This document shows, piece after piece, positions 9,625 to 43,006 of a DNA stretch of 64,000 nt. The notes under the pieces are model-generated. The model saw nothing but the letters and a program-made list of their open reading frames with translations. It was not told where the DNA came from and made no database searches. Source of the DNA: Dioscorea cayenensis subsp. rotundata (taxonomy: Eukaryota > Streptophyta > Magnoliopsida > Dioscoreales > Dioscoreaceae); assembly GCF_009730915.1 (NCBI RefSeq), contig NC_052496.1, positions 729,875-793,874 of the forward strand, written 5' to 3'. Position 1 is the stretch's first letter. Every line of letters starts with the position of its first letter. The translations under genes and the position numbers were made by a program.

Positions 9625-9732
9625 ATATTAGTGAAAAAATGAAAAATATTTTTTATAAAATAGAATTTTATTTTTTGTTTAAGAGGGAAAGATTAAATGA
9701 AAAATTAGGCCAAAGAGGTAGGGGACTTTCAT

Positions 9733-10420: not shown

Positions 10421-11162
10421 TAGGAGTGGACATGGGCCGGGCGACCCATGGGCTGGCCCAAACCCAGCCCAAAAAATACAGGGCCTGGGTTTAGAAAGTT
10501 AGCTAAAAGCGAGTTGAGCTCAAATGTTTTACTGATTAATTTCAGCTGGGTTTGAGTCAGATGAATTTTGACTCGACCCGACCCTGCCCGACCCGAATAA
10601 ATAAATAATATATATATATATATATATATATAATAGTAATAGGCTTGAAAAGAGTAAACATTTATTTTTTTTTTTTGAAAAAGTGGATAAACCACATGCA
10701 TTAACTGAAAATAAGTCCAAACAACATCCACTAGAAGTGGAGCAAAAACAAAGTACAAGATAACAAGGTCGAAACAAAATAACACAACAAGACCCCTAAC
10801 CCACCCAAAGGTTAGGGTCAAAAAATCACTGACTACTCAGCTTTGTCTTCTTCGCCGGATCTTGGCTGGTCATTCAAGAGTAAACATTTATAATACTTGT
10901 GTTGTATTTTTTTTAAATGTTTGAAAAAATTTTAGGGGTTGTAGTAGTAGTTTTATTTAGTTATTTCAATTATTACATAAAAAAAATTATTTATTTTTTG
11001 GGTTGGGTTGGGCTGGGCCTGGGCCTAATGACAATCAAATGGGTCGGGTTTGGATCAAAACAATTTGGCCCGAACATGGCCTGGCCCAGCCCAACCCGAA
11101 TATATGGGTTGTATATTTGAGTCTTGCCCAGCTCAGACCTGACCCGCTCATGTCCACCCCTA
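10421..11162. mobile_element. hAT-like non-autonomous element with 8-bp target duplication
   Basis: The ends are inverted repeats: left TAGGAGTGGACATGGGCCGG, right (reverse complement) TAGGGGTGGACATGAGCGGG. Both are flanked by the identical 8-mer CATGTCAG (10413-10420 and 11163-11170). An 8-bp duplication with GGGTGG and GGGCC-rich ends fits the hAT superfamily. No transposase is encoded; the open frames over the element are low-complexity. A LINE 3' fragment is nested at 10666-10875. Confidence 0.8.
10666..10875 (-). mobile_element. LINE 3'-end fragment nested in the hAT-like element, 16-bp target duplication
   Basis: The 16-mer AAGAGTAAACATTTAT is present at 10650-10665 and again at 10876-10891. 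Between the copies, on the - strand, is a LINE 3' untranslated tail ending in TGCATGTGGTTTATCCAC followed by poly(A) (a T run on +). The tail matches the 3' ends of the other LINE copies in the window. Since it splits the hAT-like element, it inserted later. Confidence 0.8.
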
Positions 11163-16982: not shown

Positions 16983-17420
16983 CACTCAAAAGAAACTGAG
17001 AAACTCCCTTTGGAATTTGTAAGCAGTGTGACTGAAGATTTTAACCGCAAAGCTTCTGATGATAAGTATACAAATTCCAATGTATGATTTGAAGCCTTTT
17101 GGATGACGAACAAATTTTTAATTTGGTAGAAGAGTCCAACCGTGGAAAGCCATGAATAATTGCTATTAGATAAGTAGTTTGATGTCATTGATTACATCAC
17201 TGTTAAAATCTTATTTTCTATTTTTATTTTATTTTAATATAAATGTGCCCCATCTAGAACTTTAATTTGAATCATGGTTGTTAAAAGGAGTTGAGCTCAC
17301 TCTAACAATGACAAATCATGCATTTTGAGATGTATGGTGGTGCTATTTAGAAGGTTACCACCTCTGTTTGAGGTCTCCTGTGTGTCACTTTTGTTCGTAT
17401 TTATCTTCATCACTCTTTTT

Positions 17421-17736
17421 TTTTAAATAAAGTAGATAAACCATAAATTTATTAGAGAAAAAGAAAACAAAGTACAAAAAGAAAACATAAACAGTAAACA
17501 TAAGAACGAAGGAAAATACTGAAATTCTCACTAGAGATGAGGAAAACAGTAAACATAAAGAACTAGGAAAGCAAAAAAAAAAATAGGGAGGAACTAAAGC
17601 CGGCGAAATCAGCCATATGGAGACACAAGCCTGCTCAGGGAGGGGAGAAGCAAATTACTCCTAAGTCAAGTTTGGCGCCAAATCGCCAGTGGAGTCTGTG
17701 GATCTGGAGCTCAGGAAGTTTAAAGCGCCGGCGAAG
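17421..17736 (-). mobile_element. LINE 3' fragment with 14-bp target duplication
   Basis: TCATCACTCTTTTT is found at 17407-17420 and 17737-17750. The insert on - begins with the LINE C-terminus (LNFLSSRSTDSTGDLAP, near 17725-17670) and ends in the TAATAAATTTATGGTTTATC tail with A-rich end. It matches the 3' part of the LINE at 23339-24474. Confidence 0.85.
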
Positions 17737-17949: not shown

Positions 17950-18545
17950 TTTTTTATTTATTTCTAAAAAGATGGATTGCATTAAACTAAAATGAGTACA
18001 TCAATAAAAAAAAATTTTAAAAAAACATTGAACATAGATAAGTAAAAAAAAAAAACAGAGAGTATATGACAACAAAAAATAGTACATGAGAATAGAAGAG
18101 ACAAAAGACTAAAGAAAAATAGAAAGGATGCGTGCATTCCATCCTAGCCAAATATTCCAAGTGATTACTCGAATGAGTAAATTCCCGCATTCTCGCACAA
18201 AAGTTAGTAGAGCCAAACTACACAAAGACAATACTTTTTGAAGAGAAGAAGGAATAGTTGGAAGTTGAAGAAAGCACCCAAAACAACCCCATATCTATTA
18301 TCCAAAATCACAATGTAGAAATAGATGGTCTATAGATTCTCTTGCAGAGTGATACATGATACATGTTGTAATTAGCAAAGTGTTACACCTTTTCTTGCCC
18401 AAGTTTTTGAGAGTAAAAATTTTGTTTTTCAAACCAAGCCTATTGAAAAGGTTAATTTTTTTGGAAAAATATACTTCCAGAAGTGACAAGTCATTTGGCA
18501 CCAGAGAGTAAGAATTAATTAAGGGATCATCAAAAATTTTTTTTT
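17950..18545 (-). mobile_element. Decayed LINE fragment with zinc-knuckle-like region
   Basis: On - the frame shows NRLGLKNKIFTLKNLGKK, then TCIMYHSARESIDHLFLHCD (about 18400-18300), then a broken WNIWLGWNAR-like stretch. This is the order seen in the reverse-transcriptase C-terminus at 23700-24010. The 3' tail (on + near 17960-18000) is GATGGATTGCATTAAAC-like and A-rich. Limits are approximate and I found no target duplication. Confidence 0.65.
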
Positions 18546-23338: not shown

Positions 23339-24474
23339 CTTCAGTTGTGGCTGTTCGAAAAGGATTAACATGGGAATTAATCATGAATATAAATTGTTTT
23401 AAAGTAATCCAAGGATAGGAACAGTCCAGGAAAAGAGATGCCCAACGATTGTTGGGGGATTGGCCTTCCAGCCATCTATCAAACCAGAATAAGGTGTTTT
23501 CACCGTTACCAACTGTCTTGATTAAGCAGGCACGGAATTTTTTACCGGATTGTACAATGGATACTGAAGACTCATACTCCTGGTCTTTAGATAAAAACGG
23601 AAATTTCTCCGTCAAATCTTTCTATAATTTCTTAATAGACGGAGGTCTCCGCTCCCAACTCTATTCCAATTTCTGGAAATCTAAATCTCCTAGCAAAATT
23701 ACTTTATTCTGTTGGCTAGCCTGGGATAACAAGATTCTTACACTTGAAAACTTATTCAAGAAAGGTTGCAATCCGAACGCCACTGACACATGCATTCTTT
23801 GTCACAATAATTCTGAATCAGTGGACCACCTATTGATAAACTGTATCTTCTCTTCTCGTATTTGGTCCTTTTTCAAGTGCCTTTTTGATTCTGAAACCCT
23901 ACCTTCCTCAGTCTCAATTATCTGGACCAACTGGATTCCCTCTTTGAATCCCTCCACTAGAAATCTCTGGGATCTTTGTACCAGAGCCATTTTCTGGTTT
24001 ATTTGGCTGGAACGCAACAATCGTATTTTTAATCATAGTTGTTCTACTATTTCTTCTATCTTATACAAAACAGCTAACTTGGTTCTTACTTGGTTATCTG
24101 CAGACTCGGAATCTCATCTGCAGGAAGCTTCAGAGGACATTCAGAAGATCAAGCGCTCCTTAAGCTTCCTAAGCTCCAGATCCACCGACTTCTCCAGCGA
24201 GCTGGCGCCCAGCCGAAACCAGGAGTAATCTGTTACATCAGTTTCTGGACAGGCCTATGTCTTCAGATGATTGACTTCGCCGGCTCCAGATTTTTCCCTT
24301 TTATTGTGTGTTTTTCATGTTCCCTCTGCTCTCTGTTCTCCTCATCTCTGGTGAGGTTTACAGTTTTATATCTTTCTAGCTTTTTTTCTCGCTGCTACTA
24401 TTGTACCTTGTACTTCCCTGTATTTCTTTTTTTAATAAATTAGTGGTTTATCCACCTTATTCAAAAAAAAAAAA
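23339..24474 (+). mobile_element. LINE (L1-type) insertion with 5' inversion and 13-bp target duplication
   Basis: ATTAATTGAAAAT occurs at 23326-23338 and again at 24475-24487 after a poly(A) tail. From about 23540 to 24228 the + strand encodes the reverse-transcriptase C-terminus: SWSLDKNGNFSVKSFYNFL, SKSPSKITLFCWLAWDNK, CILCHNNSESVDHLLINCIF, WFIWLERNNRIF and FLSSRSTDFSSELAPSRNQE, then TAA. The 3' UTR ends in AATAAATTAGTGGTTTATCC. From 23339 to about 23540 the matching upstream protein (VGNGENTLFWFDRWLEGQSP, then NNRWASLF) is on the - strand. This is the hallmark of twin priming. The copy is strongly 5'-truncated, yet the frame is open, so it is young. Confidence 0.9.
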
Positions 24475-25581
24475 ATTAATTGAAAATACGATTATTTTTT
24501 TTTCATGTCAAATATTTCATAAAATAAAACACAGCTTTATTTCAGTTCATTCAAATCACAAAGACACAGTATTATACATAATAATAGATATATACGACTA
24601 AATCACATAATAAGATGATAAATTAGAATTTATGCAGCTTGAGCTGAGCTCCATGCTGTGGTTGGAGAGTTACAACAGTGCATGGTGCATGGATGTAGGA
24701 AGGTGAGAGCACAAACGAGAAATGCTGGAGTATCATGCTAAGTCCCATCTTAGCTTGAATCAGTGCAAAGTTCTGGCCAATGCATACACGAGGACCAACA
24801 CTAAATGGAAAGAAAGCACCTGCAACTTTTGAAGCTTTTGATATCCCTTCTGCAAACCTCTCTGGCTTGAATTCTTTAGCATCTTCTCCCCACAATTCAG
24901 TGTCATGGTGAATTAAGAGTATAGGCAGCATGAGAAGCACTCCTGGAGGGTAACTAATCCCACCAATTTCCATTGTTTTATACGGTCTTCTGTTCAGGAA
25001 AGCCAATGGTGGGTATAATCTGAGAACTTCATACAGAATCATGGTCACCTGTACGTGTTAATTAACAAATTAACATTATGAGGATCATGAAATGACTGGT
25101 TGAACAACTTAAAAAAAAAAATTGAAAGAAAGAAAATTTTTAGTAGTTACAATCTTTAAGCGGCTCAATCCATCCATGTCAGGTGTGTTCTTCCCAAACA
25201 CTTGAAGAACCTCTTCTCTTGCCTTAGCCTGCCAGTTTGGATACATGCTCAACAAAATCATTGTCCATGTGAGCAGAGCTGAAGTAGTCTCTTGCCCTGA
25301 AAAGTAGAACAGTTTGCACTCTTCAATCACATCCTGAGTAGTCATCCCTCCTTCTTTGGACTTGCCATGCTCTTCTCCGCCCACTTTCATATTGGACTCC
25401 AATAATATACCCAGAAGGTCATTCTTGCTACCTTTCCCCATTCTCATGGCCTTCTCTCTCTTCTCAATCATGCCTCTAAGTATTCTTTCCATCTCTTTGT
25501 CAATTTGGCTTCTTCTCATATTCATTGGTGTGGGCAGAAACCTGATTAAATTAGACCAAGTCTCTCATTGAATGAAGAAAA

Positions 25582-25612
<31 letters not shown>

Positions 25613-25711
25613 TAAAGAAAAACAATCAGGAAGTCAGATAAAAATAAGAAATAGTAATTGAAAGATGGCGCGCGTACTGATAACCAGGGATATAAACACT
25701 TTGAATAGCCT

Positions 25712-28700
25712 CACTACAACAAATTTGATGATTAATGGCGCACCATTTAGTGTCACAAAATGAGAAATTCTCGTCATGTATAATATTTGATGACATTAAA
25801 CACCCCGTCACAACGATCGTCACCTTTGCACCGTAGCTAAAGATATACTATGACGATATGCACATTGTCGTTACCAAATGCTAAAATTTACGTGACGACA
25901 TATACAAATGTCACATTATAGCTATGTTTTTGTGACATTTATTTTTGTCATAAAACATATTATAAGATGTCACAAAAAATCATTGATCGTCATAAAATAT
26001 GAGTTGAATATTCAACTATTAATGACAAAATTTATCTTGTCACACTAATAGATGACGTATATTTTGTCACCTATTATTAAATAAACAACGTCGCAAGTTG
26101 TCATGAATTGTCACACAATATGAGAAAATATTCAACAATTCATGACGAAAAGATGGTTGTCACCCAAATTAGTGACATAATTTTTTTTGTCACCGATTAT
26201 TTTAAAATAATGTCACTAGATAACTTATATCGTCAAGAAATACGAGGTAAATGTGCATCTATTTATGACAAAAACATGAACGTCACATGAAATGGTGGTG
26301 TAATTTTTTGCCACTGATTTTCAGAAAATAATGTCATAAAATATTCTAAATGTGAAATTGATCGTAACATTAATATATTTGTCACTCAAATAGGTGGCAT
26401 TTATAGACTCACCAAATATTTATTAATATTTAACATTTCGTGATGTTTGCTAAATGAAAATATGACATAATTATTTTGTGACCCATTTACCATTCGTCAT
26501 GAATATTTTAATATCATTTTTTCATCAGGTCATTTGTTAAAATATATAATATTTTATATCATAATATAAAAGAACACATAATAAAATGAATTCAATACAA
26601 TTTCCACACTTAGATTTCAAACATAAAGTATCTAAATGGAAAAGTGATCCTGAAAAATATAAAATATCCTTACATCTTGATAAATTTAAATTTTTTTTCA
26701 AAAAAAAAAACCAAGCTAGTTGACATATGTTGCAGCTTATTCGCTAGCTTTCAATCTGATTCTTCTTATGACAAAGATTCAGTTGATGAAGAACCCGGCT
26801 CACTTGAAACTGTAATAAATATTCAATAAAAACAAATAAATAATTGATAAAAAGTAAAATAAATGTCGTGATAAGTAAATTTAAAAAAATGACATTGCAA
26901 TGTAAAATAAAACTAAAACATACTATTACCCAAAAATTATGGCATAGGCATGTGTATTTCATAATCAATCATAGCTTGGGTCATTATTTACATTCAAATA
27001 ACTAATTTAATATAATAATAAAATAAAATTATATATATCCAAACAGAGAATGTTTTACTCAATTGATTCAATAATAAAATAAAGCAATCGTGATTAAAAA
27101 TACAAAAATTAAATTCACCTAAAACATGCAATATATATTTTTTCTAAATCAAAATGATATATTTTATACATACCTTGTCTTCTTTGTGTGAAGAAGCCTA
27201 ATGGTCGTCTTAGAAGAAATTTATATATTATTTCTCACTCGGATAGTAAATCAAGAAGATGAACAATGGAGACAAAGGTTTTCTTTAATGAGTTGTGAGA
27301 AGATTTGGTGAAATTTGGAAGAGAGAGTGATTGCTCCTAATTGGTACAAATTTTTAAAAACTATTTTTTGGCGGGGTGTGAAGAAAATAGTAAAATTAAG
27401 TAGAGATTTGAAGAGATTTGGTGAAAGTTGGAGGAGCCAAAAAGGTAAATTTTAATTGATACAAATTTTTTGGATCTTAATTGTACTTAATTTTAGCTAC
27501 CGTTTTTGGCAAAAAGGGAGAAAATATGCATTTTAATCAATCTTTTGAACATTGGGGTTAACAAATTTATACTTTGCTAAAATTTAAAATTTATAGTTTA
27601 TATATTACTTGTTATTGGATCTACAATGTTGGTTATTAGTTTAACATTATTTATCTTAATTTATATATTCTAATAAATAAGTTATATCTAACAAAGTAAT
27701 TTATACAAGATAATGGGTTAAATGATTTACATAAGTTAGTGAGTTAATTAATTAATTAATTTATCCAAATTGTTTTTCATTAGCATCCTATTATATTTAT
27801 AATTTGTAAGATAAATTATTATATTTTTATAATTGTCATATTAAATGATTTAGATTATTTATAACATTTGATTGTTTTAAATCAACTATAAATTTTAATA
27901 TAAATCTCAAATTAAATTTTATAACATTATAATAATTTAATCATATTCCACTAAACATACAAATATAAAACAAAATAAAAATAAATATAATGAGAAAAAT
28001 TTCAAGTATTATTTTTTTAAGTATTATTTCCCGAGATTTTCAAACTCGGACCAAACTTGTTAGTCTAACCTTGTTGACTCGTAATTGATTTTAAGACCGA
28101 TCTTGTTCGACTAGAAAACCTGATTTGGAATAACCCTAGAGCGAATCGTTGACCTAAGCAGTTGGGTTGGTGAACCAGTGACTTGGTTGAATTTTTTAGG
28201 GAGACTCAACTATCAACAAATATTTTCCTAAAAATATAATTTTTAATATTTTATATACTAATTTGCAAAATATAAATTTTTTTGAGATAATATATGTTTA
28301 TAAATATTATTTTTTCTAAAAATAAAATTTTTTATACTACAAAAGTAAATTTGCAAAAAAAAAAGGATGTAATAATATATTTTCCAAAATATTTTTGTTA
28401 AAAATATAAAATTTTAAATTATATGCATTAATTTATAAAAACATTTAACATTTTCGAAAAAAATAAATTGAGGGTATTGTACCCTCAGTGAAACTTGACT
28501 TTTTTAAAAAAAAAGGGGGGAAAAAGAGGGGAAGGGGATGGGGAAAGTGGAACACCCAACTTGTGAGATAATGGGATGCTCAAACACACTCTTGACCCCC
28601 TCTTTCCATCTTTGCCAAAACCATACAAAAATTCACGTGCTCCGGTCAATGTGACTTGCATCCACATGTAGAGGGGCAAAATTTACTTTTATTCTTTTCT

Positions 28701-29018
28701 TGAGAAAAACCCGATGCAACAAGCACAAGAGACCTTAAAGCTCAAAAATAAATAATACAACCCCCAAGAAATCTGGTTTGGATTGCTTTTTAAATAATAA
28801 ATAAAAAGGGTTAATTTGTACTCACCCTTTAATCCATCGTTCTCCTAAAAATTTTTGATTTAGGTCATAATTCAAAGCAAAGCACAAAGAAATAATTCAA
28901 GGTATCCCAACAATAAATGCTCACATTAGAATAAAAATGATATCTCGCTTATGAGGAAAAACTTTATGTCATGCACAAATTAAACAAATGTGACATTTTG
29001 TAATTCATTCCATTAATG

Positions 29019-29087
<69 letters not shown>

Positions 29088-29537
29088 TGACACAATGAGA
29101 CTATCACAAATATTTATATTTTTAGTGACATACATACATGTCACGAAATAATTAAAAACATACATGACAAAAACCAAATGGTCACAAATAATATACAATG
29201 GTATTAGTGACATAATGTCAAAAATTGTTTTAAAAAAATTGTGCTTTATAATCGTCACAAAAATTGCAAAAGATTGATGACAAAATGAGAGCGTTACTAG
29301 TATATTATTAGTGTTACTAAAATGTTTTCCCTCCATCTCCGCTGAAGTGGAGAAATTTGGCGCCACACATTGTGTGACGCTTCTATGTGATATTATCAAG
29401 CATTGTCATGTACTAATATTCAGCTAGTGGAATTAAGTGACTATATTTGATTTTTGTCACATTATATGCTCTTTTAGTGACATATGAAAAATACGTCATA
29501 TAGAAAATCGCCACTAATCATCAAATTTGTTGTAGTG
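25712..29537. mobile_element. Non-autonomous CACTA (En/Spm-type) transposon in P450-D exon 3
   Basis: The ends are inverted repeats of 29 bp with one mismatch, both beginning CACTACAACAAATTTGATGA. The 3-bp duplication CCT (25709-25711, 29538-29540) is typical for CACTA elements. Both subterminal regions are dense in short motifs such as TTTGTCAC, TGTCACA and GTGACG in both orientations (about 25740-26540 and 29080-29520), the likely transposase binding arrays. The 3826-bp interior has no transposase frame. It contains AT-rich sequence, a run of about 32 TA units (29021-29085) and some short frames I do not recognise. Confidence 0.93.
29021..29085. repeat. (TA)n microsatellite, about 32 units
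   Basis: Longest pure TA run in the window, inside the CACTA element near its right subterminal array. Confidence 0.9.
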
Positions 29538-29904
29538 CCTGAAGAAAAAGCTGGGTTTGCTCTGTTAGGAATTGGAATATTTTTCTTCCTTCTTCATAGT
29601 TGCTACCAAATGCAGTCCTGGAAATGACATCTTTTGTGAGATTTTGAAGTTCTGGAAACACGTCTAATTCTAAAGAGCCTTCATCAGGGATCATCTTGTC
29701 CCATCTTCTAATTAGCTCATCCAATGATGTAGAGAATGCTGGCACCATCAGCTGCAAACCAGAAATTTATTTATTTATTTATTTTTTAATGGTTAAAAAT
29801 GAGAGCAGTCCGTTTCTTTTTGATAACCATATAAAGAAAGCTCTTTTTATTAAAAAAAAAAAAACACCAAAGTTTATTTATTTTATTAAAAATAAAAAAT
29901 AAAG

Positions 29905-30075
29905 TGAACTGTCACACCGCTGGTGTAGTGTCTTTTTTCTCTATTAGTTCTTTTGTCTGTTGTGGATTGTTTCTGTTTTGTTGTTTTGTTTGTTTGTTTG
30001 TTATTGACAGTTTTGGTTTCTCTAATAAATTTATAATTTATCTATTTTATTTAAAAAATAAAAAATAAAAAAAAT
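29905..30075 (+). mobile_element. LINE 3'-tail fragment in P450-D intron 2
   Basis: T/G-rich 3' UTR-like sequence ends in TAATAAATTTATAATTTATC followed by an A-rich run, matching the other LINE tails in the window. No target duplication could be resolved in the A-rich flanks. Confidence 0.55.
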
Positions 30076-30347
30076 TCACAATAATTATGTGAATTCTTTA
30101 TTTCTTGAAATATATGAATTTACCTTCAGCTTCTCAAGATGGAAGGCAGGATTGATAATTCGTCTGTGTTTGACCCATTTTTGGCCATCATAGCTTAGAA
30201 GACCTACAAATATAATTTTTGCAAGAGGATTTACTTTTGGTTTCACAAAATGTCCAAATTTGTTCATCAAAACTTCTTTGATTAATCTTGGATCCATCAA
30301 GCTCACTCTTGGATGAGGTCCGAACCAAGTGAAAGATATTTTACCTG

Positions 30348-33300
30348 CACTACAAATAAATTGCCATATAGTGACGGTGTAAAAGACGTTGGTAAAAGTC
30401 AAAAATCTGTTGGTAAAGGTCCCAAAACCCTATACCGACAGTAAAAATAGCTATTCCAACACTTATTTTACCGTCGGTAAAAGCCTTGTAGGTATAGACC
30501 TATACCAACGGATATAGCTTGTTGGAATAGATTTATTAGTTTTACCAACTAATACGAATGTAACTATTGGTTATACTGCTGGAGATAGCACATCAAATTA
30601 CTTATCCTATACCAACAATAAAAACACTTATTCCAACAATTTTTACAATTAGTAAAAGTCTTGTCACATACATCTATACCAACGGTTATAGCTTCTATTG
30701 AAAAGTTCATGGATTTACCAACGGAATATAACTATAACTATTAATCTCACCGTTGGTAAAACATCTCATATTTATTTACCTTATACCAATGATAAAATGT
30801 ATATATTCCAACATTTTTACCGTCAATAAAAAATCTCTACAAGCAAAGACCCTATACCAATCTAGTTACAATATTTGTTGAATAAATCCATTTGATTTAT
30901 CAATGATCACAACATCCGCTGTTATAGATGTATATTCAAAAGACATGTTTAGCTTTTAGCAACGACTGATACCGCTCGGGTAAAAATTTTTATATTAATA
31001 ATTAATTTGTCAATAAAACTATTATTGTTATCCTCGGAAATATATTAGAATAGTTTAATAACTCATACACAATTAAATTAATTTACAATACATTAAAACA
31101 ATCAATGGCATTAAAAACAAAAAACATTTCACTAAAAATAAAAAAGAAAAACTATTACATCACCACAAACATATATTTATAAGGTATATGTCCAAAAATA
31201 AATCACCATTCAATCTTGACAACCAAGAGTTCTTTCCTCAATTTTAAATCTAACAAAAATAAACTACTTTCATTTCATGTCTAACAACCCAATAAAAGCA
31301 ACAAGAATTTTTCCTAAGTAGAACCGTGATGTCATCTTCTAAACGGATCATCATCTACAAGAACCATTTTAAAAAAAATTACAATTAATAAGATGTATGT
31401 AACAATAAAATACTAATATAAAAACTTAAAATAATAAGTTGAATAATATAAAAAACTATAAGTAAAATAATATACAACATGTCATGCCTTCTTTTTCATT
31501 TGGAGACAATAAAAGCTTACTTGATGCATTTTGGATTTACTTGATGACTTGATTCATGAGAATGATTATTCCCACGCCGGGGCGCTTTGTTGAGCACTAG
31601 AAGCATCATATTCCTACAAATTATATAAAATAGAAGTTAAAAATTGTTTACACAACAATAGCTAAAAGGATTTGCAAACTAGTAATAACTTGTAAAGATT
31701 AAAAACAATGATATATATCAAAGACCATTAAAAAATTACCAACAATAACATCAAAATCCTACAACAAACCAAAATAAAATAATTAAATATGCAACCATCA
31801 AAACAAAAATGAACAAAACTTATATATGACAATAAGGAAAATAAATGTATTTAAAAACAATGATAAATATCAAAGACTATTAAAAATTACTAAACAATAC
31901 CATCAAAAATCCTACAACAAACAAAATTAAAATAATTAAATATACAACAATCAAAACAAAAGATTATTATATGTGCTAATAAGGAAAATAAATATATTTA
32001 ATCCATAGTGTGACTATAGACTAACAACAAATTTGCTACTCTAATATATATATATAGTAGCTAAATATACATAGTATCACATACCTCTCCATTGACTATA
32101 TGAGTCACATAGATTTAGGACCTCCATGTTCTCATTAGCAAATTGTTTTTGAAATAATGAAATCACAAAGTAGTTAAAAGCTTCCTTCAATCCTTGAACC
32201 TCAGCCTTCAAATCTTGTACTATTACGATATATGATTTGAGAACATGAAGGACCAGACTTTGCTTGATGAAGTAGAAATTGTTCCCATACAACGAATCAC
32301 GCCTCTTTCTCCGGTCCTTTAACTATGAATACACATCATTTTCTCCCATGAACACCTTTTTAGGATCTTGTGAATTACTTTCACATAATCCTTTCTCTTC
32401 ATAAGTTCCTACAATATAAATCAAAAGCATAAAATCAAAAAATACTAGAACCTCTATTTCCTTGTCATCCATAATTCTACAAACTATTGAATTTAGTGTA
32501 AGTGTCAAGTTATTAGAAAAACACAACCATTAATTAAAAAAGCATGAAGTTAAATAAATACCACAATGTCGCTTTTTCATTCACAACACTTCCATCTTCA
32601 CGAGTACAGTGCAAGTATATACATTTCGGCACGTGATGGTGGAATTCCATTAGATTCTTCGCTCTACAAAAATTACTTTTATTTAGTAGATATAACAAAC
32701 TCAATTTCCCCAAAACCCATAACATTAGTCAAAAATTCAATAAAAATTGTAAATTTATACCACGCTTTGAATAATAGTAGAAATGATCTTGTTCCCACAC
32801 ATGTTCATCGATTTTGAACGATTTGTTCTATTTGTCTCACTTTGTTCCTATACAATTTTTGAGTATATAGAATATAACATAATGTATAATTATGTTTTGA
32901 TTATCAAACCAATATAAATGGTATATAATGTGAAATATATAGATATAGCCTTCGCTTTGTCGGGCCAACCAATAAGTAGCAATTACCAAAAATTGTTGTT
33001 TGTCTACTCGAGGATCATCAATCTTTGAGGCCATTTTCCACTCGCCTTTGTGTTCATCATAATATTTGGACTTCAAAAATTCTTCAATTGCTCCACTTAG
33101 TACTCACATTCTCATTAATCTATCCAACTCTTAACCATTTGAGTTGTATTTTCATTTAAAGACTCATCATTTTTCCCTATGAATGCTACAACTCAAATGT
33201 GAATTTGGTCTAAAAATTTTAAGAAAAATAAGAGTATTAGTTGAATGCTAATATATTGAAGTAAATTATATCTTGAACATAATAAGATTTAATACCTGAT

Positions 33301-33986
33301 TACTTTCCATATTTCTTCCTTTTGTAGAATCGGGAACTCATGCCAAGTTGTGTAAGTAATAGGGTGCAAAGTTAGGCATTCGCATCATACTACCGATAAA
33401 TCGAAAGTTAATTTAGTAGCTTCTTCTCCAATTGGTATACGGTGATCGCTTAACTTGACAACAAACTCGTTCTTTCATTATTCAAATCCCAAATATCACC
33501 CATACGTAGGGACCTCGAACTGGCTTAGCATTACCGGCTACATAAAAGAGTAACACAAAAATTTAAGTCATAGTTAAATATAAATAAGTGAAAATACATT
33601 AACTAATGCATTTAGAATTTATACATGAAATTGATGGTTGTTCAAATTGTTGTCGAGGTTCATTTGGTGAAAAGCTCGGCCCTAAAAACACGCATTGTTG
33701 TTCGTGATAATGAGGCCGATCTCGGATTGTTGTTGAGAAGTCGAGTGCGATTTGCCTTCAGTGATATTCAGAACCGCTTACGCCTTTCCCATTTATCTAA
33801 AAATGAAAAATTAATGATAAATTCATTTCCTCATAAAAATGCCCTCAAATAAATCTTAGTTAAAGGAAAGTAGAGTAATATACCTTTATAAGCTCTTAAA
33901 AGTACATGCATTAACCAAGATAATCAAAATATAATAAAATTCAAACACACAAATTAAACTTCTATACCCACATAGTCATATCAANN
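30348..33986 (-). mobile_element. Second CACTA-type transposon with transposase remnants, running into the gap
   Basis: Begins CACTACAAATAAATTGCC directly beside CTG (30345-30347), the splice acceptor CAG of P450-D exon 2 on the - strand. The first 600 bases are a subterminal array of TATACCAACGG, TTTACCGTCGGTAAAAG and similar units. On the - strand from about 33100 to 32077 broken frames resemble the plant Ptta/En/Spm transposase family: KSKYYDEHKGEWKMASKIDD, PRVDKQQFLVIATYW, TREDGSVVNEKA, DPKKVFMGENDVYS, and DLKAEVQGLKEAFNYFV with FQKQFAN. No far end was seen before the gap or in the first kilobases after it, so it probably lies in the gap. It is unrelated in arms to the first CACTA element. 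Domain assignment is from memory of the family and uncertain. Confidence 0.65.
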
Positions 33987-34984
33987 NNNNNNNNNNNNNN
34001 NNNNNNNNNNNNNNNNNNNNNNNNNNNNNNNNNNNNNNNNNNNNNNNNNNNNNNNNNNNNNNNNNNNNNNNNNNNNNNNNNNNNNNNNNNNNNNNNNNNN
34101 NNNNNNNNNNNNNNNNNNNNNNNNNNNNNNNNNNNNNNNNNNNNNNNNNNNNNNNNNNNNNNNNNNNNNNNNNNNNNNNNNNNNNNNNNNNNNNNNNNNN
34201 NNNNNNNNNNNNNNNNNNNNNNNNNNNNNNNNNNNNNNNNNNNNNNNNNNNNNNNNNNNNNNNNNNNNNNNNNNNNNNNNNNNNNNNNNNNNNNNNNNNN
34301 NNNNNNNNNNNNNNNNNNNNNNNNNNNNNNNNNNNNNNNNNNNNNNNNNNNNNNNNNNNNNNNNNNNNNNNNNNNNNNNNNNNNNNNNNNNNNNNNNNNN
34401 NNNNNNNNNNNNNNNNNNNNNNNNNNNNNNNNNNNNNNNNNNNNNNNNNNNNNNNNNNNNNNNNNNNNNNNNNNNNNNNNNNNNNNNNNNNNNNNNNNNN
34501 NNNNNNNNNNNNNNNNNNNNNNNNNNNNNNNNNNNNNNNNNNNNNNNNNNNNNNNNNNNNNNNNNNNNNNNNNNNNNNNNNNNNNNNNNNNNNNNNNNNN
34601 NNNNNNNNNNNNNNNNNNNNNNNNNNNNNNNNNNNNNNNNNNNNNNNNNNNNNNNNNNNNNNNNNNNNNNNNNNNNNNNNNNNNNNNNNNNNNNNNNNNN
34701 NNNNNNNNNNNNNNNNNNNNNNNNNNNNNNNNNNNNNNNNNNNNNNNNNNNNNNNNNNNNNNNNNNNNNNNNNNNNNNNNNNNNNNNNNNNNNNNNNNNN
34801 NNNNNNNNNNNNNNNNNNNNNNNNNNNNNNNNNNNNNNNNNNNNNNNNNNNNNNNNNNNNNNNNNNNNNNNNNNNNNNNNNNNNNNNNNNNNNNNNNNNN
34901 NNNNNNNNNNNNNNNNNNNNNNNNNNNNNNNNNNNNNNNNNNNNNNNNNNNNNNNNNNNNNNNNNNNNNNNNNNNNNNNNNNNN
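33987..34984. other. Assembly gap (Ns)
   Basis: 998 unknown bases. The far end of the second CACTA element and exon 1 of P450-D could both lie here. Confidence 1.
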
Positions 34985-35045
34985 TTTATTATTACTTTTT
35001 GTTTTAATAAATTTGTGGTTTATCTACATTATTTTAAAAAAAAAA
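34985..35045 (+). mobile_element. LINE 3'-tail fragment next to the gap
   Basis: TTTTAATAAATTTGTGGTTT followed by ATCTACATTATTTT and an A run is the shared 3' terminus of the LINE family of this window. Its 5' part is in the gap. Confidence 0.6.
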
Positions 35046-35747
35046 TAATGTTGTTATTACACTCATCATAAAATCATTCTCAAAAGGGCTTTTAAATTTC
35101 TGGTATTCCTTGAATGAAAAAATGCATGATTCATTTACTTATTTCAAAGAGAAAAAAAGAAAAACTTATTAGAACTTCGTGATCAATATCTTTATTTGTG
35201 GCATGAACCACAAGGGTAGGTCCGAGCTTAATAAGGTATTCATAATGTGAACGTGGTTGAGCATTAATATGCAGAAAAAATTTATAGGAGAATACCTCTG
35301 GCAACTCTTTAAATTATAAGACAAGATGGACTTTGTGTTTTATGATTCATTACACATAATCAAAGGCTATATTTTCTTTTAAAGTGCTCATATAAATATT
35401 AATCAAGAATAATTATTTCTTAATTCTATTTTCATTTTTGTTTAATGCAGCAGTGCTAGTTTATAATACACACATACAAATTAACTCGCTTCTAAAAAAT
35501 AAACATTAAAATAAAAAAATATTGCAAGCGTTTGGAGAGAGCGAAATTGAAACTTTCACTGCCCTCAAGGCATCTCACAAACCTAGTCAAGTTATGGTTT
35601 TGACTTGGTAAATCAATATTTTGCTAATCATAAAGATCAGCCAAACAAGACTTGGTTCAGTCAAAGCACTTATATACATTATAATTCTTGAATAAACTAG
35701 TAATATATATATATATATTTCATTCTTAAACCAAACTAGCTGAGAAA

Positions 35748-35945
35748 ATGAGTTCCATTAGCGTCTATGCTTTATTCCTGGTTACTTAATTTATTCTTAT
35801 GAGGGTTCATGCAATTAACTCACGGCCAAGTGACAACCAAGTACAACAAACTCTACAGCGAATTTTGATGGCAAGAGTATTGATCAAGGGATTGCTTATA
35901 TATATATTCTTATGCTTCTCGAACTATTAGTCACACTTATATATA
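35748..35945 (+). pseudogene. Decayed arabinogalactan-peptide gene copy
   Basis: ATG at 35748 opens MSSISVYALFLVT and then hits TAA. After a frame change the downstream part reads FDGKSIDQGIAY followed by ILMLLELLVTL. This matches the C-terminal GPI-signal region of the gene at 39494-39685 (DQGIAYVLMLVALLVTY), and the start resembles its signal peptide. An early stop, frame changes and an ATAT expansion in the GIAY region show that it is dead. It lies 3.7 kb upstream of its live relative, in the same direction, so a local duplication is likely. Confidence 0.7.
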
Positions 35946-35980
35946 TATATATATAATTTGGTCAAAGGAACTACAAGAAG

Positions 35981-36253
35981 CTAGTTAACTAGACTCAAAG
36001 GTTTAAAAAAAAATCTGGCCTTCTCAGCAACCTCATCCAACCATCTCGGGAGATCCAAGCCCCGGTGGAAGTGGAACACACTAATATTCATCATTTGCTC
36101 TCCCCTCTTAATTATAGCACAACCTATCAGACCCAGTTCTTCGGCATTGTATCTCATATTTTGTAGATTATATCTAAGGATAAGTATGTAAACTGTATAT
36201 GTAATGCATTTGTTGCACATTTGATTACTGATATAATCATTCTTTTCTTTCAA
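35981..36253 (-). other. Unrecognised coding-like frame
   Basis: The - strand frame ends with NAEELGLIGCAIIKRGEQMM, then NISVFHFHRGLDLPRWLDEV, then AEKARFFF. Composition is protein-like (mixed charged and hydrophobic residues, not low complexity), unlike the AT-driven frames around it. The first part (about 36253-36170) looks like non-coding AT-rich sequence, so the real segment is probably 35990-36165. It may be an exon fragment of a captured or decayed gene. I cannot assign it to a family. Confidence 0.3.
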
Positions 36254-36414
36254 TATATATATATGAACCTCGACTTAATTATGCTCATCATTCCTTGTAG
36301 TTTCAGTTCATTTTGTGTTTCTTCTAATTTTGAAGAACTAGTAAATTAATAATAAGGTTTGAGAAATATGATGGAAAAATATTGGCGTAATTGTCAAAGG
36401 TTTATTGTCCAACA

Positions 36415-36640
36415 ACATTAGCCTCACTACGAAATAGCGTTGGTGGGAGACATTCAAAAGGTTCGAAATTCAAGTCATGTTACATACAGTGATGGTAATG
36501 GGTCTCTAGCTGTGAGTTCGGACTTGTAACCCAAACCCACATCATCAGGTGAGGAGAGGCAAGAATTAAACGTTTAATTCCCAGTTTGCATACACGCTTT
36601 TGTCAATATTTATCGCATTTGACAGAAAAAAAAAATGTTG
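36415..36640 (+). mobile_element. SINE-like element, second copy of the 9733-9995 family
   Basis: A-box-like ATAGCGTTGGTGGGAG, B-box-like AGGTTCGAAATTC, then GTAATGGGTCTCTAGC to CATCATCAGGTGAGGAG and a poly(A) run at about 36628-36637. The central part aligns with the element at 9733-9995. tRNA-derived SINE by layout. Confidence 0.55.
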
Positions 36641-36754
36641 GCACAATCTAGTGGGGATTAAATTTGAATTGTTTCATATGTTAATTACAATTTCATAGGA
36701 TTGGATCACTTTTAATATTTTTAATTAATATATATTTTCATCAATATGGCTGAA

Positions 36755-36756
<2 letters not shown>

Positions 36757-36809
<53 letters not shown>
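36757..36809. repeat. (TA)n microsatellite
   Basis: About 26 uninterrupted TA units in AT-rich intergenic DNA. Confidence 0.9.
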
Positions 36810-36812
<3 letters not shown>

Positions 36813-37509
36813 ATTAGTCTTACTAGGCAAATTCTCTTGCTTCGCTTTGGTTTTTTTTTTCTTTACAATTTTGATGGTTGTAAGACAATATTATAAATAA
36901 CCATAATTTGAAATAAAATAGTTTAATTAATGAAATTATAACATCATGCAAAGAGTTTTTAAGAGAAAATAAATAAAGCAAATGCAAATGAAGTAATACC
37001 TAGCAAAAAATTATTAAAAAATAAAAATAGAATAGAAATGAAAAGGTAAAAAATTAATTACACAATAATAGGTATCACAACCTCTTATATACCTTATTAT
37101 AAAAATTAAATCAAAGATCATATTTTAAAAATACATCTAGTTTCTGGAGTTTCAATATCTTTCATCATTTAATTATATTCTGTATTTTGATATCTTTAAT
37201 TTTTTCTAATTTACTTAGATATAATCCAAGATAAATGGCGGGTTTCAATTATGACTTGCAAATTGACCAAAAAAATTTATGATTTGATAACTCCCTAGCA
37301 TACATCTATCAGAAAACAAATATTTTTCAATCACTATAATTGGTTATGAAAGGTTTTATGGAGTATTTAATACAAAATTAATGAAAGCAATTAAACTTTT
37401 ATATTAATAATTTCATAATTAATGCAAACAAATATTTAAGTGCAATAATATTTAAAAAAAATCATAATTACTCCTTGAAATGCTCTCAAGTCAGATTATG
37501 CATAGATTA

Positions 37510-37915
37510 TTTGTTAGAAAAGTAGAGAATCCACAAGGAAAATTAAGAGAGCAATAAGATAATGCAAACACACAAGATTTACGATGTTTGGCAATATGCC
37601 AACGTCCTCGGAAGCGGAGCAGCTGTATTCCTCTTATTAATTCGTCTCACTCTATATAGACAAAAAAATCAGTGTTATATGAATTTATAGGTAAAACCTA
37701 AGCTTATTTGGATACAAACCCAATCTAAATCCTAAACCTATCCGGATACAATTTACAAGATTACTAAATCATAATCTTAACCAAATACAAATTAACTTTG
37801 TATCATATATATCGCAGGCCGTTACCCCCACAACCCAAAGGACAGATGATGTCGCTCCACTCCACTCTATTCTCGCATTTACTCGTTTACTTATGTATAT
37901 GATCCATACACAACA
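37510..37915. mobile_element. LTR-like remnant
   Basis: Starts TGTTAGAAAAG and ends near CATACACAACA (TG...CA). The stretch CACACAAGATTTACGATGTT, then GGCAATATGCC and CGGAAGCGGAGCAGCTGTAT, resembles a conserved segment I associate with plant Copia-type LTRs. No target duplication was found and there is no coding content, so it is tentative. Confidence 0.35.
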
Positions 37916-39385
37916 TCATTCATGATTTGGTGCCTCATAGTTTTTATAACCTTGCAAAATTTGTTTTGGTGAATGGTGATTTATTTGCTTTTATATAAAA
38001 ATAATAATAATAAATGTATTTTTAAAATATATTATATGAAGTTTATGGCTTGAACTATTGGATCAACCTAGTTCATGACTGAACCTTGTGCAAATCTTAT
38101 AATAACATACAAAAATTAAAGTTTGTACTTGTATATGATGGTTTGGACACTAACCTATGGATCCATTTAATTTTGAGCCCATAATTATGGTTGAAGCATG
38201 TACATAGCATGTCTCTTTCTTGTGAAGATTAACAAATCTTTTTCAACGCTTACTACATCAATTACCATGGAATTTAATTTACAATTTGTTTTATAGCAAA
38301 CATTATCTAAATGAACACCGAATTTTATCTCTGATGACTGCTACTTTGTGTTTGTTTTCAGTTGTTTCTTTGTCTGTCTCATTTATTTGTGTTTTATTTT
38401 GGATTTTCTTGTTTTGGGTTTGTTTGTCTATTTTTTTTAAATAAATTTATGATTTGTTTATTTTATTTTAAAAAAAACATCGATGTAAGTTATAACTAAT
38501 TTATCTTAGTATATTAAATCTTAAACAGGAGAAGTATTCTGTGAATAACCCAATCTAATTAACGGAATAGTTTCATGAGTATATAATATTTCATTATATG
38601 GCAACCTTAACCTATTGTATTAAATAAAATGACATTTAAATTATAAGTAATTTGTTTAAAAATATTATAATATAATTATTTTAATAAATATTCAATTGGG
38701 GAGGTTGTCACACATAAGGCGACAAGCGGCGCCCCATAAAAAAATATCAAATAACAGATATTTATGATGATGCACTAGTTATAGTAGTTTAACAATTCTA
38801 TTGAATATTACATATGGTTTTTTATGACAAAAGCTATATAAGCCGCTCTACAAGGTATGAAAATTTCAAAAAAAAAATTCTATAAAATTATTGTGAGAAG
38901 AAAGTTATGATTAGAAAACTAAGTGATAGATTAGCAACATTATATGAATCTGTTGGGGTCTTATACAGACCAGTTTAATGTTTAATTAGATTAGGAATTG
39001 GTCAATTAGTTACTGAGACTAAACACAATTTTTGTTTTAATTAGCCAAGACCTTCATTTAATTTGTTCCTTTCTAACATTTCATTTGTCCAAATGTTTGT
39101 CTCACATATTGGTTCACACATCACATGAACTCTTACGTTCATTCACATTCATTCAAAATATTCATCAGCAATAAATTAAAATTTTAAAAGAATTATAGAA
39201 TTAAATTGTCTCAGCCAATTAAGGCCGCTCCATATCACTTCCATCCAAACAAAGCGAAACAAGTTGGCTAAGTCAACCAGATAAAGTCCAAGAGCAAAGC
39301 CGCACATCAACAACACTAATATATACTTTAACCAAGTCAAACAAACACAGCTTTGAACTAACAGAGCCCTCTGATTTTCAGTTAC
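37916..39385. other. AT-rich intergenic region with a LINE 3' tail
   Basis: At about 38340-38476 (+) a T/G-rich stretch ends in AAATAAATTTATGATTTG and an A run, the LINE tail of this window. Nothing else could be supported. Confidence 0.5.
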
Positions 39386-39393
39386 TATATATA
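39386..39393 (+). promoter_or_regulatory. Possible TATA box of the arabinogalactan-peptide gene
   Basis: TATATATA 101 bases upstream of the ATG at 39494, giving a plausible leader of about 70 bases. TA-rich DNA is common here, so the assignment is weak. Confidence 0.35.
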
Positions 39394-39493
39394 CATCCAC
39401 AAACATTCATCACTTCCATCTCAAGCTAATTATTAGAATACAAGCTCTTCTTCAATTGCTACTATACATAAATATATATATCTCTATATAATT

Positions 39494-39685
39494 ATGATGA
39501 GTTCATCCATGAGAGTTCATGTTTTGGTATTCCTAACTTTCTTCTTCTTGTCTGGGCTGATGCAAATGGCTCATGGGCAATCAACAACAACTTGTTGGAA
39601 GGTTGATAACAAGTCAATTACTGATCAAGGGATAGCTTATGTTCTAATGCTTGTGGCTTTGCTTGTCACTTATATTCTTCATTAG
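39494..39685 (+). CDS. Arabinogalactan-peptide-like GPI-anchored small protein
   Basis: Single exon, 63 residues. Residues 1-28 are a signal peptide (MRVHVLVFLTFFFLSGLMQ, cleavage probably after AHG). The C-terminus TDQGIAYVLMLVALLVTYIL with a final His is the GPI-attachment signal typical of the AGP16/20/22 group of arabinogalactan peptides, in which DQGIAYVLM is strongly conserved. Proteins of this group go to the cell surface as very short glycopeptides. Here the mature part would be about 13 residues (QSTTTCWKVDNKS). It lacks the Ala-Pro, Ser-Pro or Thr-Pro units that carry arabinogalactan and contains a Cys and a Trp. It may therefore not be glycosylated in the usual way. A dead copy lies at 35748. 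Confidence 0.75.
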   Translation: MMSSSMRVHVLVFLTFFFLSGLMQMAHGQSTTTCWKVDNKSITDQGIAYVLMLVALLVTYILH

Positions 39686-40685
39686 AGTTGAGTCATGTTA
39701 ATTTAAATTCTCAAGTACCAATTGCATGAACTAGCTAGCTTGTGCACTTTGTCAATTCATTCATTAATTGTTGTATCTCATGAGACGTTTATATATATAT
39801 AGCTAATTAAGAAATTGAGATTGTGATCTTGCAAGTGAGGTACTGTTGAAAATTAATGGTTTGTAGTTGAACCACAAAGATCAAGTGAAGCAAGAAAAAA
39901 GCAAAAACAAATGTCTTCACAGAAAGTATCCCTGTGAATTAATTTGATTACCAAGATGATGGAGAAAGTATGGGTCATATATTCATGTGCTTGATAATGT
40001 GCTAAAATTCATAACTTATTATAGATCCAAAGACTAATTAATGAGAACCTATTGACCTAATCAGGCATTTGCCATGCAATGCAAGTTAGGAAATTGTCAA
40101 ACATTTGCTGCGTTTACTTAAAGTTAAAGGCACACTTCATATGGACCTCAACAAGTCATGATCTTTGTCTTTAAGCTTTTCAGAAAAAGGAATTAGGTCA
40201 TCATAAAAAGATATTGTAATACATGAGTTTGATTCACTGCAAATTAATGCAATAACTCTCACTGAAGAATCAACTTGAAGAAACTGAATCTGTTCGCTTT
40301 AAATACAAAATTATATTAATCAAATTACAATTAAATAGATTAGCTGGAAAAGTACCCAAAAAAAAAAAAAAATTCAGATATCCATAAATACAATTTATAT
40401 ATGACATTACTCCAGGGATATCTCCACACATCACACATGCATTGCAAACACCCCTAATAAAGTTATATATAAACCCTCCACCATTAATCCCTTGCCAATG
40501 CAACATATCTCCACATTAAATCACCATTAATTATATATCTCTCTCTCCATAAAATTTTATAATATAAATAATATATACACACAGAGAGAGAGAGAGAGAG
40601 AGAGAAGAAGATTTCTCTTTCCTTTTCTACCCTTCTCATCTCCTTCATTTCTCAAACTCCTTTCTTTCTCTCTTTCTCTCTTTCA
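39686..40685. other. Spacer between AGP-like and OVATE genes
   Basis: No coding sequence supported. A (GA)n run at about 40582-40605 and CT-rich sequence at 40610-40685 belong to the OVATE gene promoter or leader. Confidence 0.6.
40582..40605. repeat. (GA)n repeat upstream of the OVATE gene
   Basis: About 12 GA units, followed by CT-rich sequence. GA/CT runs are common in plant core promoters and 5' UTRs and can bind BPC-type GAGA factors; a regulatory role here is inference. Confidence 0.6.
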
Positions 40686-40694
40686 CTATAAAAC
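40686..40694 (+). promoter_or_regulatory. Possible TATA box of the OVATE gene
   Basis: CTATAAAAC lies 83 bases upstream of the chosen ATG, within a CT-rich stretch. Confidence 0.45.
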
Positions 40695-40776
40695 AAATAT
40701 ATTCAACTCCCTCTTGTACACACTGACACAACCTCTCCCATCTTTCTTTCTGAAAAGCAAAAAAGAAGAAGAGATC

Positions 40777-41466
40777 ATGGGAAGGAACAAGAGTCTTAAA
40801 AAGTCCATAAGGATCTATTTCTCCAAACTAAAGAAACCAATTCCCAACTCCAGCGGAGCCAGCAAACTCCTCTCCGTTTGTAAGTACCCAAAGACGCCGT
40901 CTTTCGCCGTGGACCGTGACCTCTCCGAAGAACGAGATCAGGCGGCCACTCTCTCAGACATAGATCGTTTCCTCTACGAGAATTTTCACTCACTCTACGC
41001 CGGTGGAGGAGCATCGGAGTCCAGCTCCGAGTCACCGAGATTCACTGACCCGTTGCCGGACTCCATACGCTCCTCTGGCAGGTTCTTCGTGTTCCCCGGC
41101 GCTTCAAACTCGTTGGTGGAGGAGGCGAGGCTGAGCGCGGCGTCGTCGTTGTCGGAGCAGGGGCCGGTAGTGCCCGGTGGTGGGGTGGCGGTGATGACGT
41201 TCTCTAAGGACCCTTACGATGACTTCCGGAGATCCATGCAAGACATGGTGAACGCTCGACACGTGGACCCGGATCAACCGTTGGATTGGGACTTCATGGA
41301 GGAGCTGTTGTTCTGCTTCTTGGAGCTCAATGATCGAACGGTGCATAAGTACATACTTAGAGCCTTCACTGATCTGACGGTTAGTTTTCGCCGGAAGGCT
41401 CCGGCTAGCCGGCGTGAGGTTCCGGCAGCAAGAAGGAGGACGGTTAGAGAGAGGGAGGGGATGTGA
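40777..41466 (+). CDS. OVATE family protein (transcriptional repressor type)
   Basis: Single exon, 229 residues from the ATG at 40777 (MGRNKSLKKSIRIYFSKLKK). An in-frame ATG at 40714 would add 21 residues, but MYTLTQPLPSF is not family-like and lies close to the TATA-like box. The short basic N-terminal block is typical of the family. The OVATE domain is at about 136-200: VAVMTFSKDPYDDFRRSMQD, then the WDFMEELLFCFLELNDRTVH core and YILRAFTDL. The C-terminal tail is Arg-rich. OVATE proteins repress transcription with TALE homeodomain partners and affect organ shape and secondary wall formation. The subgroup cannot be fixed; the N-terminus looks most like the OFP13/14/18 side. Intronless structure is usual for the family. 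Confidence 0.92.
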   Translation: MGRNKSLKKSIRIYFSKLKKPIPNSSGASKLLSVCKYPKTPSFAVDRDLSEERDQAATLSDIDRFLYENFHSLYAGGGASESSSESPRFTDPLPDSIRSSGRFFVFPGASNSLVEEARLSAASSLSEQGPVVPGGGVAVMTFSKDPYDDFRRSMQDMVNARHVDPDQPLDWDFMEELLFCFLELNDRTVHKYILRAFTDLTVSFRRKAPASRREVPAARRRTVREREGM

Positions 41467-43006
41467 CGTCACTTTCCAGGCTGGATTGTGTTACTTTATT
41501 TGTTTTTTGTTTTTTTTTGAAAAAATGCTTTATTTGTATATATATATATATATATAACATATATTTAGAAGAAGAAATAGTATGAAACTTGATGCGATAT
41601 ATGAAAATAACGACAAAATTAACGTGAATCTCGCATGAATAAAATATAATATATATAATTTTCATTATTAATTAATATATTATTTGTGTTGGAAAATTTT
41701 TCATGAATGAGCGAGCCGAAACAGCACTCATTAATTGTTCTGGCGTTTTTATAGCTATTTGATTAAATCAAAAGGATAGAAGAGTCTAGGGGTGGTATGT
41801 GTGATATACTAATAAGATAATAAAGTTGATAAAATTAATTGGAAAGAAGTTTCTTGAGATGTGGAGTCACATGCAGAGCACTTGCCTCAAGAGAAGTTCA
41901 TAATGGGCTTCGGTTTCAGAGGTTGGGATCTGTTTACCGGAATCATTGACAATAACAATGAAGTTCATAAGTTCAATTTGGAACAAGATAATTTTTTCAT
42001 AGTTTGAATCCACTGTGTAATATTATAATAATAAAGCTTTTTTGCCTCTGAACAATGTCCCACACTAAGGTCCAATCCAGTGGTGAGGATAATCATAATT
42101 TGTTTCATAAGATTAAATAGGACAACAGGATCTGTTTAATGCATGTAAGCAATAAGCCTTGTCCAAAAAGTGAATGTTTTCTTAGTATAGATGTAGAACA
42201 CGAATATTTTTTAAAAAAATCATATATATATATATTTATTTATATATATATTTATATATCTGCTGATCTAAATCAATCCAATGAAAAAACAAATGAGTCA
42301 TGAAACTTGCCTTCTGTTGGCAGATAAAACAATTGCCTCTAAATTCTGTATTTTTTTATGACGCCAGATAAACAATAATTGCATGTATGAACTCTTAAGA
42401 TCTCACACACATACATACACACGTATATAAATGTTAACATGAATCAATCGATGAAAAAGCAAATGAGTCATGAAACTTGCCTTATGCTGGCAAGTAAAAT
42501 AATTGCCTTTAAATTCTGCATTTTCAATGACACCAGATAAATATTGACTACATGTATGAACTCTTGAGATATCATTCCTTGATATTAAACTTGCCCATGA
42601 CCATGCCTTGAATTTTGGGCAAAAAATGAAATTGACACAGAATGGGACTCCTGCAGTTGGGTCACAGGATCATCTGCACAAGAACAAGCTTATTCGAATG
42701 ATAAGAATAAAAAATACAATGTACACCAAACAAGGAAAATAAGAAAATGGCTCTATCTTCAACTCCTTTATGCTTTGCTGTGCTGAATATAATGAACAGG
42801 ATGATATAGTAGGTTATATCACCGACAACCTCATTGATCTGTCATGACAGGATAATAACTCAAATTGGTAAGTTGAGATATCCAATAAGTTCAAGAAAAA
42901 AGAGTCACAGAAGCAGAGATTGTATATACAAAGAACAAAAAAACGTTCTGCAGAACAGTAAAATTCAATGGATAACATGCTATGCTAAAGGCAGTAGTTC
43001 CTTACT
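41467..43006. other. Intergenic: AT-rich, with a tandem duplication at 42271-42569
   Basis: No supported gene. The region separates the OVATE gene from the 3' end of RTEL1, which is convergent with it. Confidence 0.6.
42271..42569. repeat. Imperfect tandem duplication, about 130-bp unit
   Basis: AATCAATCCAATGAAAAAAC through CATGTATGAACTCTTAAGA (42271-42401) is repeated at 42442-42569 with substitutions and small indels. ATGAGTCATGAAACTTGCCT and CATGTATGAACTCTT are in both copies. Confidence 0.8.

Follow-up and report, generated by a model that had tools for sequence, protein, structure and literature searches.

The insertion of a CACTA transposon into a gene is already a well-documented event, and a raspberry case involving an exon is closely similar to the one described here. 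RiCACTA1 is a 4.3-kb CACTA element in exon 2 of raspberry ANS, where it is accompanied by a CCT duplication and a premature stop, and it has no transposase ORFs (PMC11790086). RiCACTA1 is heterozygous in another raspberry cultivar, and the cultivar 'Anne' has a 5-bp insertion whose origin the authors suggest to be the same CACTA event (PMC11790086). Soybean examples are Tgmt*, a 20.5-kb, putatively autonomous CACTA element with imperfect 13-bp TIRs in intron 1 of F3'H (PMC2613891), and TgmR*, a 13-kb element that carries a tnp2-type transposase and lies in an intron of a MYB gene, for which excision products were found and the intron was spliced (PMC4219821). In maize En/Spm and the defective dSpm, non-autonomous members depend on an active partner (PMC2613891).

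Here we describe a P450 cluster in the window, that is, the whole 64,000-nt stretch of Dioscorea cayenensis subsp. rotundata DNA that was analysed. It is highly probable that an apparently non-autonomous CACTA (En/Spm-type) element, designated as element 1, is inserted in exon 3 of the gene P450-D, and that a second CACTA-like element, designated as element 2, lies at the exon 2 acceptor of the same gene. F3'H, the host gene of Tgmt*, is also a P450. Element 1 resembles RiCACTA1 in its similar size, its location in a coding exon, the CCT duplication, and the premature stop; RiCACTA1 has no transposase ORFs, and none was detected among the 8 of 36 ORFs scanned in element 1. The host gene in raspberry encodes a dioxygenase instead of a P450, and the terminal repeats of RiCACTA1 are poor, compared with 28 of 29 agreeing positions in element 1 (PMC11790086). 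Tgmt* likewise occupies a plant P450 gene. It is a CACTA element with structured subterminal repeats and a 3-bp duplication, but it is 20.5 kb long, putatively autonomous, located in intron 1 and not in an exon, and has imperfect 13-bp TIRs (PMC2613891). TgmR* shares with element 1 the CACTA ends, the 3-bp duplication, the subterminal repeats, and a position within a gene, but differs in its 13-kb length, tnp2-type transposase, intron site, and excision products (PMC4219821). Maize En/Spm can be likened to element 1 by description as a member of the same CACTA superfamily, although the subterminal motifs vary between families (PMC2613891).

The cluster contains four neighbouring P450 copies, A, B, C, and D. 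Pfam PF00067 (p450) matched exon 5 of P450-D with an E value of 9.4e-31, and the P450-D translation contains FxxGxRxCxG, which we take to be the heme-binding motif of P450. A PDB search confirmed P450 in general. We presume the cluster to be CYP72-like; no CYP72 is named among the 60 PDB chains listed of 264 matched, and Pfam gives p450 only. The closest paralogue of P450-D is A, with 89% identity in exons 3 and 5. The exons of P450-D and the corresponding third exons of the paralogues are as follows.

24623..25048, minus strand: P450-D exon 5, 426 nt with stop, carrying the p450 domain and FxxGxRxCxG
25151..25541, minus strand: P450-D exon 4, 391 nt
25678..25711, minus strand: downstream portion of P450-D exon 3, 34 nt, with donor GTACGC
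29541..29751, minus strand: upstream portion of P450-D exon 3, 211 nt excluding the CCT copy, with acceptor TTTGCAG
30124..30344, minus strand: P450-D exon 2, 221 nt, located by a tblastn match to exon 2 of C
7736-7492: paralogue A exon 3, 245 nt
12881-12637: paralogue B exon 3, 245 nt
15649-15405: paralogue C exon 3, 245 nt

We reconstructed exon 3 of P450-D from its two parts. The upstream part including a CCT copy (29538-29751) measures 214 nt and the downstream part 34 nt; subtracting one CCT gives 245 nt, the length of exon 3 in all three paralogues. When exons 2 to 5 (221, 245, 391, and 426 nt) were joined without element 1, the resulting 1,283 nt contained a single stop, at the end, with GT-AG borders and no frameshift. 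Blastn of P450-D against paralogue A returned three blocks, 24615-25719, 29537-29768, and 30120-30348. The homology between D and A is lost no more than 8 nt from the left end of element 1, and also at its right end. A preliminary description of this DNA had proposed a CACTA transposon cleanly inserted into a P450 exon whose earlier state could be rebuilt exactly; the break of homology at the element and the in-frame 245 nt bear out both points, and the span it had noted, 25678-29751, is precisely exon 3 of P450-D on the minus strand with element 1 inside.

The boundaries of element 1 were defined by the following features.

25712..29537, no strand: CACTA element 1, apparently non-autonomous, with TIRs, CACTA/TAGTG ends, CCT duplication, and subterminal motifs
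25712..25740, plus strand: left terminal inverted repeat of element 1, 29 bp, by sequence match
29509..29537, minus strand: right terminal inverted repeat of element 1, 29 bp with one mismatch, by sequence match
25709..25711, no strand: target-site duplication CCT, left copy
29538..29540, no strand: target-site duplication CCT, right copy
25712..26512, no strand: left subterminal repeat region of element 1, TGTCAC/GTGACA 12 times and TCGTCA/TGACGA 8 times
28960..29537, no strand: right subterminal repeat region of element 1, TGTCAC/GTGACA 7 times

Element 1 is 3,826 bp long. Its inverted ends agree at 28 of 29 positions, starting with CACTA and finishing with TAGTG, and CCT stands on both sides; 29-bp inverted ends and a CCT duplication had been claimed for this insertion. 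Searched at up to three mismatches, the 29-mer occurred at just these two sites in the window, with no second copy of the ends, and none of 100 shuffled sequences had two sites. The short core CACTACAANAAAT, allowing one mismatch, also gave two sites; however, at least two were present in 26 of 100 shuffles, which is not above chance. The weight of the end evidence thus lies on the full 29 bp together with the exon. A match of the 3-bp flanks alone would arise by chance in about 2% of cases. The empty site with one CCT copy is consistent with all three paralogues. A chance inverted repeat was considered as the source of the ends and rejected (0 of 100 shuffles). Other transposon types were also considered; CACTA ends with a 3-bp duplication fit CACTA instead. 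A literature search with the string CACTACAACAAAT returned an unrelated match only, and 23 bases of the element end had no match among viral contigs, which is uninformative for a plant element.

Subterminal motif counts were compared with those in 1,000 sequences randomised by a first-order Markov model. Over the left 801 nt of element 1, TGTCAC/GTGACA occurred 12 times (randomised mean 0.8, maximum 5) and TCGTCA/TGACGA 8 times (mean 0.6, maximum 4), and in the right 578 nt TGTCAC/GTGACA occurred 7 times (mean 0.4, maximum 3), an excess that is somewhat flattered by picking the motifs from the same sequence. The 2,447-nt middle contained no TGTCAC/GTGACA, with 0.3 expected. The subterminal repeats are present in both orientations. 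This motif pattern is the arrangement of subterminal repeats found in the CACTA elements described in PMC2613891 and PMC11790086. Element 1 thus has the inverted CACTA/TAGTG ends, the 3-bp duplication, and the two-orientation subterminal repeats by which CACTA (En/Spm) elements are recognised. The mechanism at exon 3 of P450-D is ordinary CACTA insertion, which duplicated CCT, as the sequence on both sides of the element shows. As just one genome copy was seen, mis-assembly of the insertion is formally possible.

There are 36 ORFs of at least 38 aa overlapping element 1, and eight of these were scanned against Pfam at E values up to 1. Seven had no match, and one had two weak matches to viral families (E 0.23 and 0.62) that fell below the cut-off. 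Element 1 looks non-autonomous, because no transposase was detected in these 8 of 36 ORFs, a scan that a gene split into very short exons could escape. Its movement would need a transposase supplied from elsewhere in the genome.

We then evaluated the consequence for the reading frame. In the gene sense with element 1 kept, a TGA occurs at element nucleotides 15-17, so that the frame counted from the beginning of exon 2 has 149 codons, compared with 426 without the element. The part lost downstream includes the I-helix, ExxR, and heme-cysteine motifs. Because the TGA precedes these parts, no functional enzyme is expected from the P450-D allele in its assembled form.

Removal of element 1 from the pre-mRNA like an intron, leaving partial expression, would soften this effect. 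Some maize dSpm alleles are known in which the element is spliced out in this manner. The gene-sense end of element 1 reads TTGTAG|TG, followed by the duplication GAG|G, so that either of two AGs could serve as an acceptor. If the exon 2 donor were spliced to the later one (the AG of the duplication), the product would be in frame for 355 residues and 213 nt would be lost, among them the upstream portion of exon 3. We also examined the 14 best-scoring donor candidates in the region that begins with exon 3 and takes in the first ~490 nt of element 1. The early stop was kept in every case for the ten donors inside the element, and three of the four exonic donors (29745, 29661, and 29628) were in frame with one acceptor but lose 207, 123, and 90 nt, respectively. 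Full exon 3 was regained by none of the candidate splices. The donor matrix was a rough one, and five of the nine donors accepted for A, C, and D scored -2 or lower in it; since accepted donors also score below zero, weak scores do not preclude use. A clean splicing-out of element 1 was rejected, as none of the donor-acceptor pairs examined returns the full exon. In soybean, splicing of the MYB intron that harbours TgmR* is accurate (PMC4219821). A shortened P450-D protein produced by splicing is possible on paper, and we regard intron-like removal that sustains partial expression as highly unlikely.

Excision is a separate route to restoration. If both CCT copies were retained, exon 3 would stay in frame with one residue added; excision would therefore restore exon 3 in principle. 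The preliminary description had extended this to the gene. That extension is not demonstrable, since excision would leave element 2 in place and exon 1 unseen, and only the statement on exon 3 stands.

Element 2 was overlooked in the preliminary description, as was the lack of a visible exon 1 in P450-D. The visible part of element 2 and the flanking features are as follows.

30345..30347, minus strand: CAG splice acceptor of P450-D exon 2, CTG on the forward strand, flanking element 2
30348..33984, no strand: CACTA-like element 2, visible part, with CACTACAAATAAATTG end, flanking CTG, and subterminal motifs
33985..34984: exactly 1,000 consecutive N, directly after the visible element 2

The CACTA-like end CACTACAAATAAATTG at 30348 abuts exon 2 of P450-D, and the homology between D and A ends at this same position, the element 2 terminus. 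In its first 643 nt, CCAAC occurred 12 times and GTAAAA 11 times (randomised mean 1.2 and maximum 6 for each). These subterminal motifs differ from those of element 1. The string CACTACAA as such has five occurrences in the window, two of them at unrelated places (51960 and 55658). The exon 2 acceptor of paralogue A is CAG as well. With one copy of the duplication visible, element 2 probably landed on the exon 2 acceptor and duplicated CAG. Such an insertion would retain the acceptor AG and replace the intron upstream of exon 2; the 40 nt before the acceptor are as T-rich in P450-D (0.40) as in A, B, and C (0.33-0.38). Element 2 was judged as CACTA-like from one end. A partner end was not found from 30501 to 45000, where the best local score (23) was below the highest obtained from 20 shuffles (29), and 7 scanned ORFs of the 33 listed gave no Pfam match at E values up to 1. 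At 36425, CCT is followed by the CACTA-like string CACTACGAAATAGCG, with no evident subterminal repeats by eye; this is probably a chance occurrence.

The run of 1,000 N is probably an assembly gap, in which the other end of element 2 and exon 1 of P450-D may be hidden. TBLASTN of the A and C exon 1 sequences over the whole window (E up to 10) recovered A and C themselves and nothing else better than E 3.6, and BLASTN over 30000-50000 gave matches at E 0.6 or worse only. Exon 1 of P450-D may thus lie within the gap at 33985-34984, or be lost.

These results limit the earlier claim that P450-D was a sound gene when element 1 landed. The claim is correct for exons 2 to 5, which have no stop or frameshift, and cannot be extended to the whole gene, because the end of element 2 lies at 30348 and no exon 1 was found. 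It is quite possible, although we would not give it an even chance, that the loss of exon 1 (or the arrival of element 2) predates element 1, so that P450-D was already a recent pseudogene and the insertion in exon 3 had no effect. The exon 1 search is consistent with this sequence of events, although exon 1 may sit in the 1,000-N gap, and a neighbouring copy is in a similar state.

11632-13590: P450-B, pseudogene-like, with no exon 1 detected and odd-length exons 2 and 4

Exon 2 of P450-B is 222 nt long and exon 4 is 392 nt long; stops occur in each of the three frames, and this copy looks like a pseudogene. For P450-D, the intact exons 2 to 5 argue against prior decay, and the substitution data can be read on both sides. 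Ka/Ks was 0.376 for A-D, 0.276 for C-D, and 0.266 for A-C, suggesting that P450-D has been a gene mostly under constraint. Lineage-specific codon changes (nonsynonymous:synonymous) were 31:17 in D, compared with 21:20 in A and 33:34 in C, a nonsynonymous lean in D that would favour the pseudogene reading but is not significant (Fisher p 0.28 vs A, 0.13 vs C, and 0.12 vs both). We also simulated neutral decay of exons 2 to 5. After 20 substitutions (1.6% per site), the probability that the exons stay open was 0.49 when stops only were counted, and 0.07 when frameshifting indels were assumed at one tenth of substitutions. These values hint at a recent loss of function, in a model-dependent manner. 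The two ends of a CACTA element cannot be used for dating as those of LTRs can.

The preliminary description had raised the possibility of an unstable allele that varies among individuals. Instability of the P450-D allele between individuals is plausible only by analogy with described systems. The stronger proposal is that P450-D is a live unstable allele, at which an active autonomous partner moves element 1 so that individuals differ at the site. The near-perfect TIRs and subterminal repeats of element 1 would suit such movement, the open exons 2 to 5 suggest a recent event, and the CCT footprint would be in frame with one added residue. In raspberry, the 5-bp insertion of 'Anne' is linked by the authors to the same CACTA event (PMC11790086). 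However, no transposase was found in the scanned ORFs of element 1 (8 of 36), and P450-D may stay disabled after any excision on account of element 2 and the unseen exon 1. We therefore consider a live unstable allele quite unlikely. A related proposal, which we consider rather unlikely, is that P450-D is a young compound allele hit by two CACTA families, at exon 3 and at the exon 2 acceptor where CAG was duplicated, and still segregating. If this were true, empty, singly hit, and doubly hit haplotypes would reveal the order of the events and the activity of both families.

The insertion of element 1 is a clean gene-breaking event in a P450 cluster and can be used as a presence/absence marker. 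It also provides a handle for testing the activity of CACTA families in the species. Should P450-D make a specialised metabolite, chemical differences between plants would have a simple cause in this insertion.

Other repeats were observed around the cluster. An ORF with a zf-RVT domain, a LINE remnant, was identified by Pfam at 23419-24228 within 23419-24475, and LINE-related protein fragments lie at 9039-9677 and 18088-18459. Further LINE remnants are located at 17416-17662, 10665-10695, 8761-8818, and 34993-35045, the last being a LINE-like tail that follows the 1,000-N run. Related LINE 3' tails surround the P450 cluster in both orientations. A stretch of P450-B intron 2, at about 12925-13220, resembles a LINE tail by eye only, and the LINE tail query gave no match there. 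Just 3' of P450-C, on the minus strand, the segment 14300-14361 starts with GGGTGGCAATAAACCGGG, which we take to resemble the ends of some hAT-type elements.
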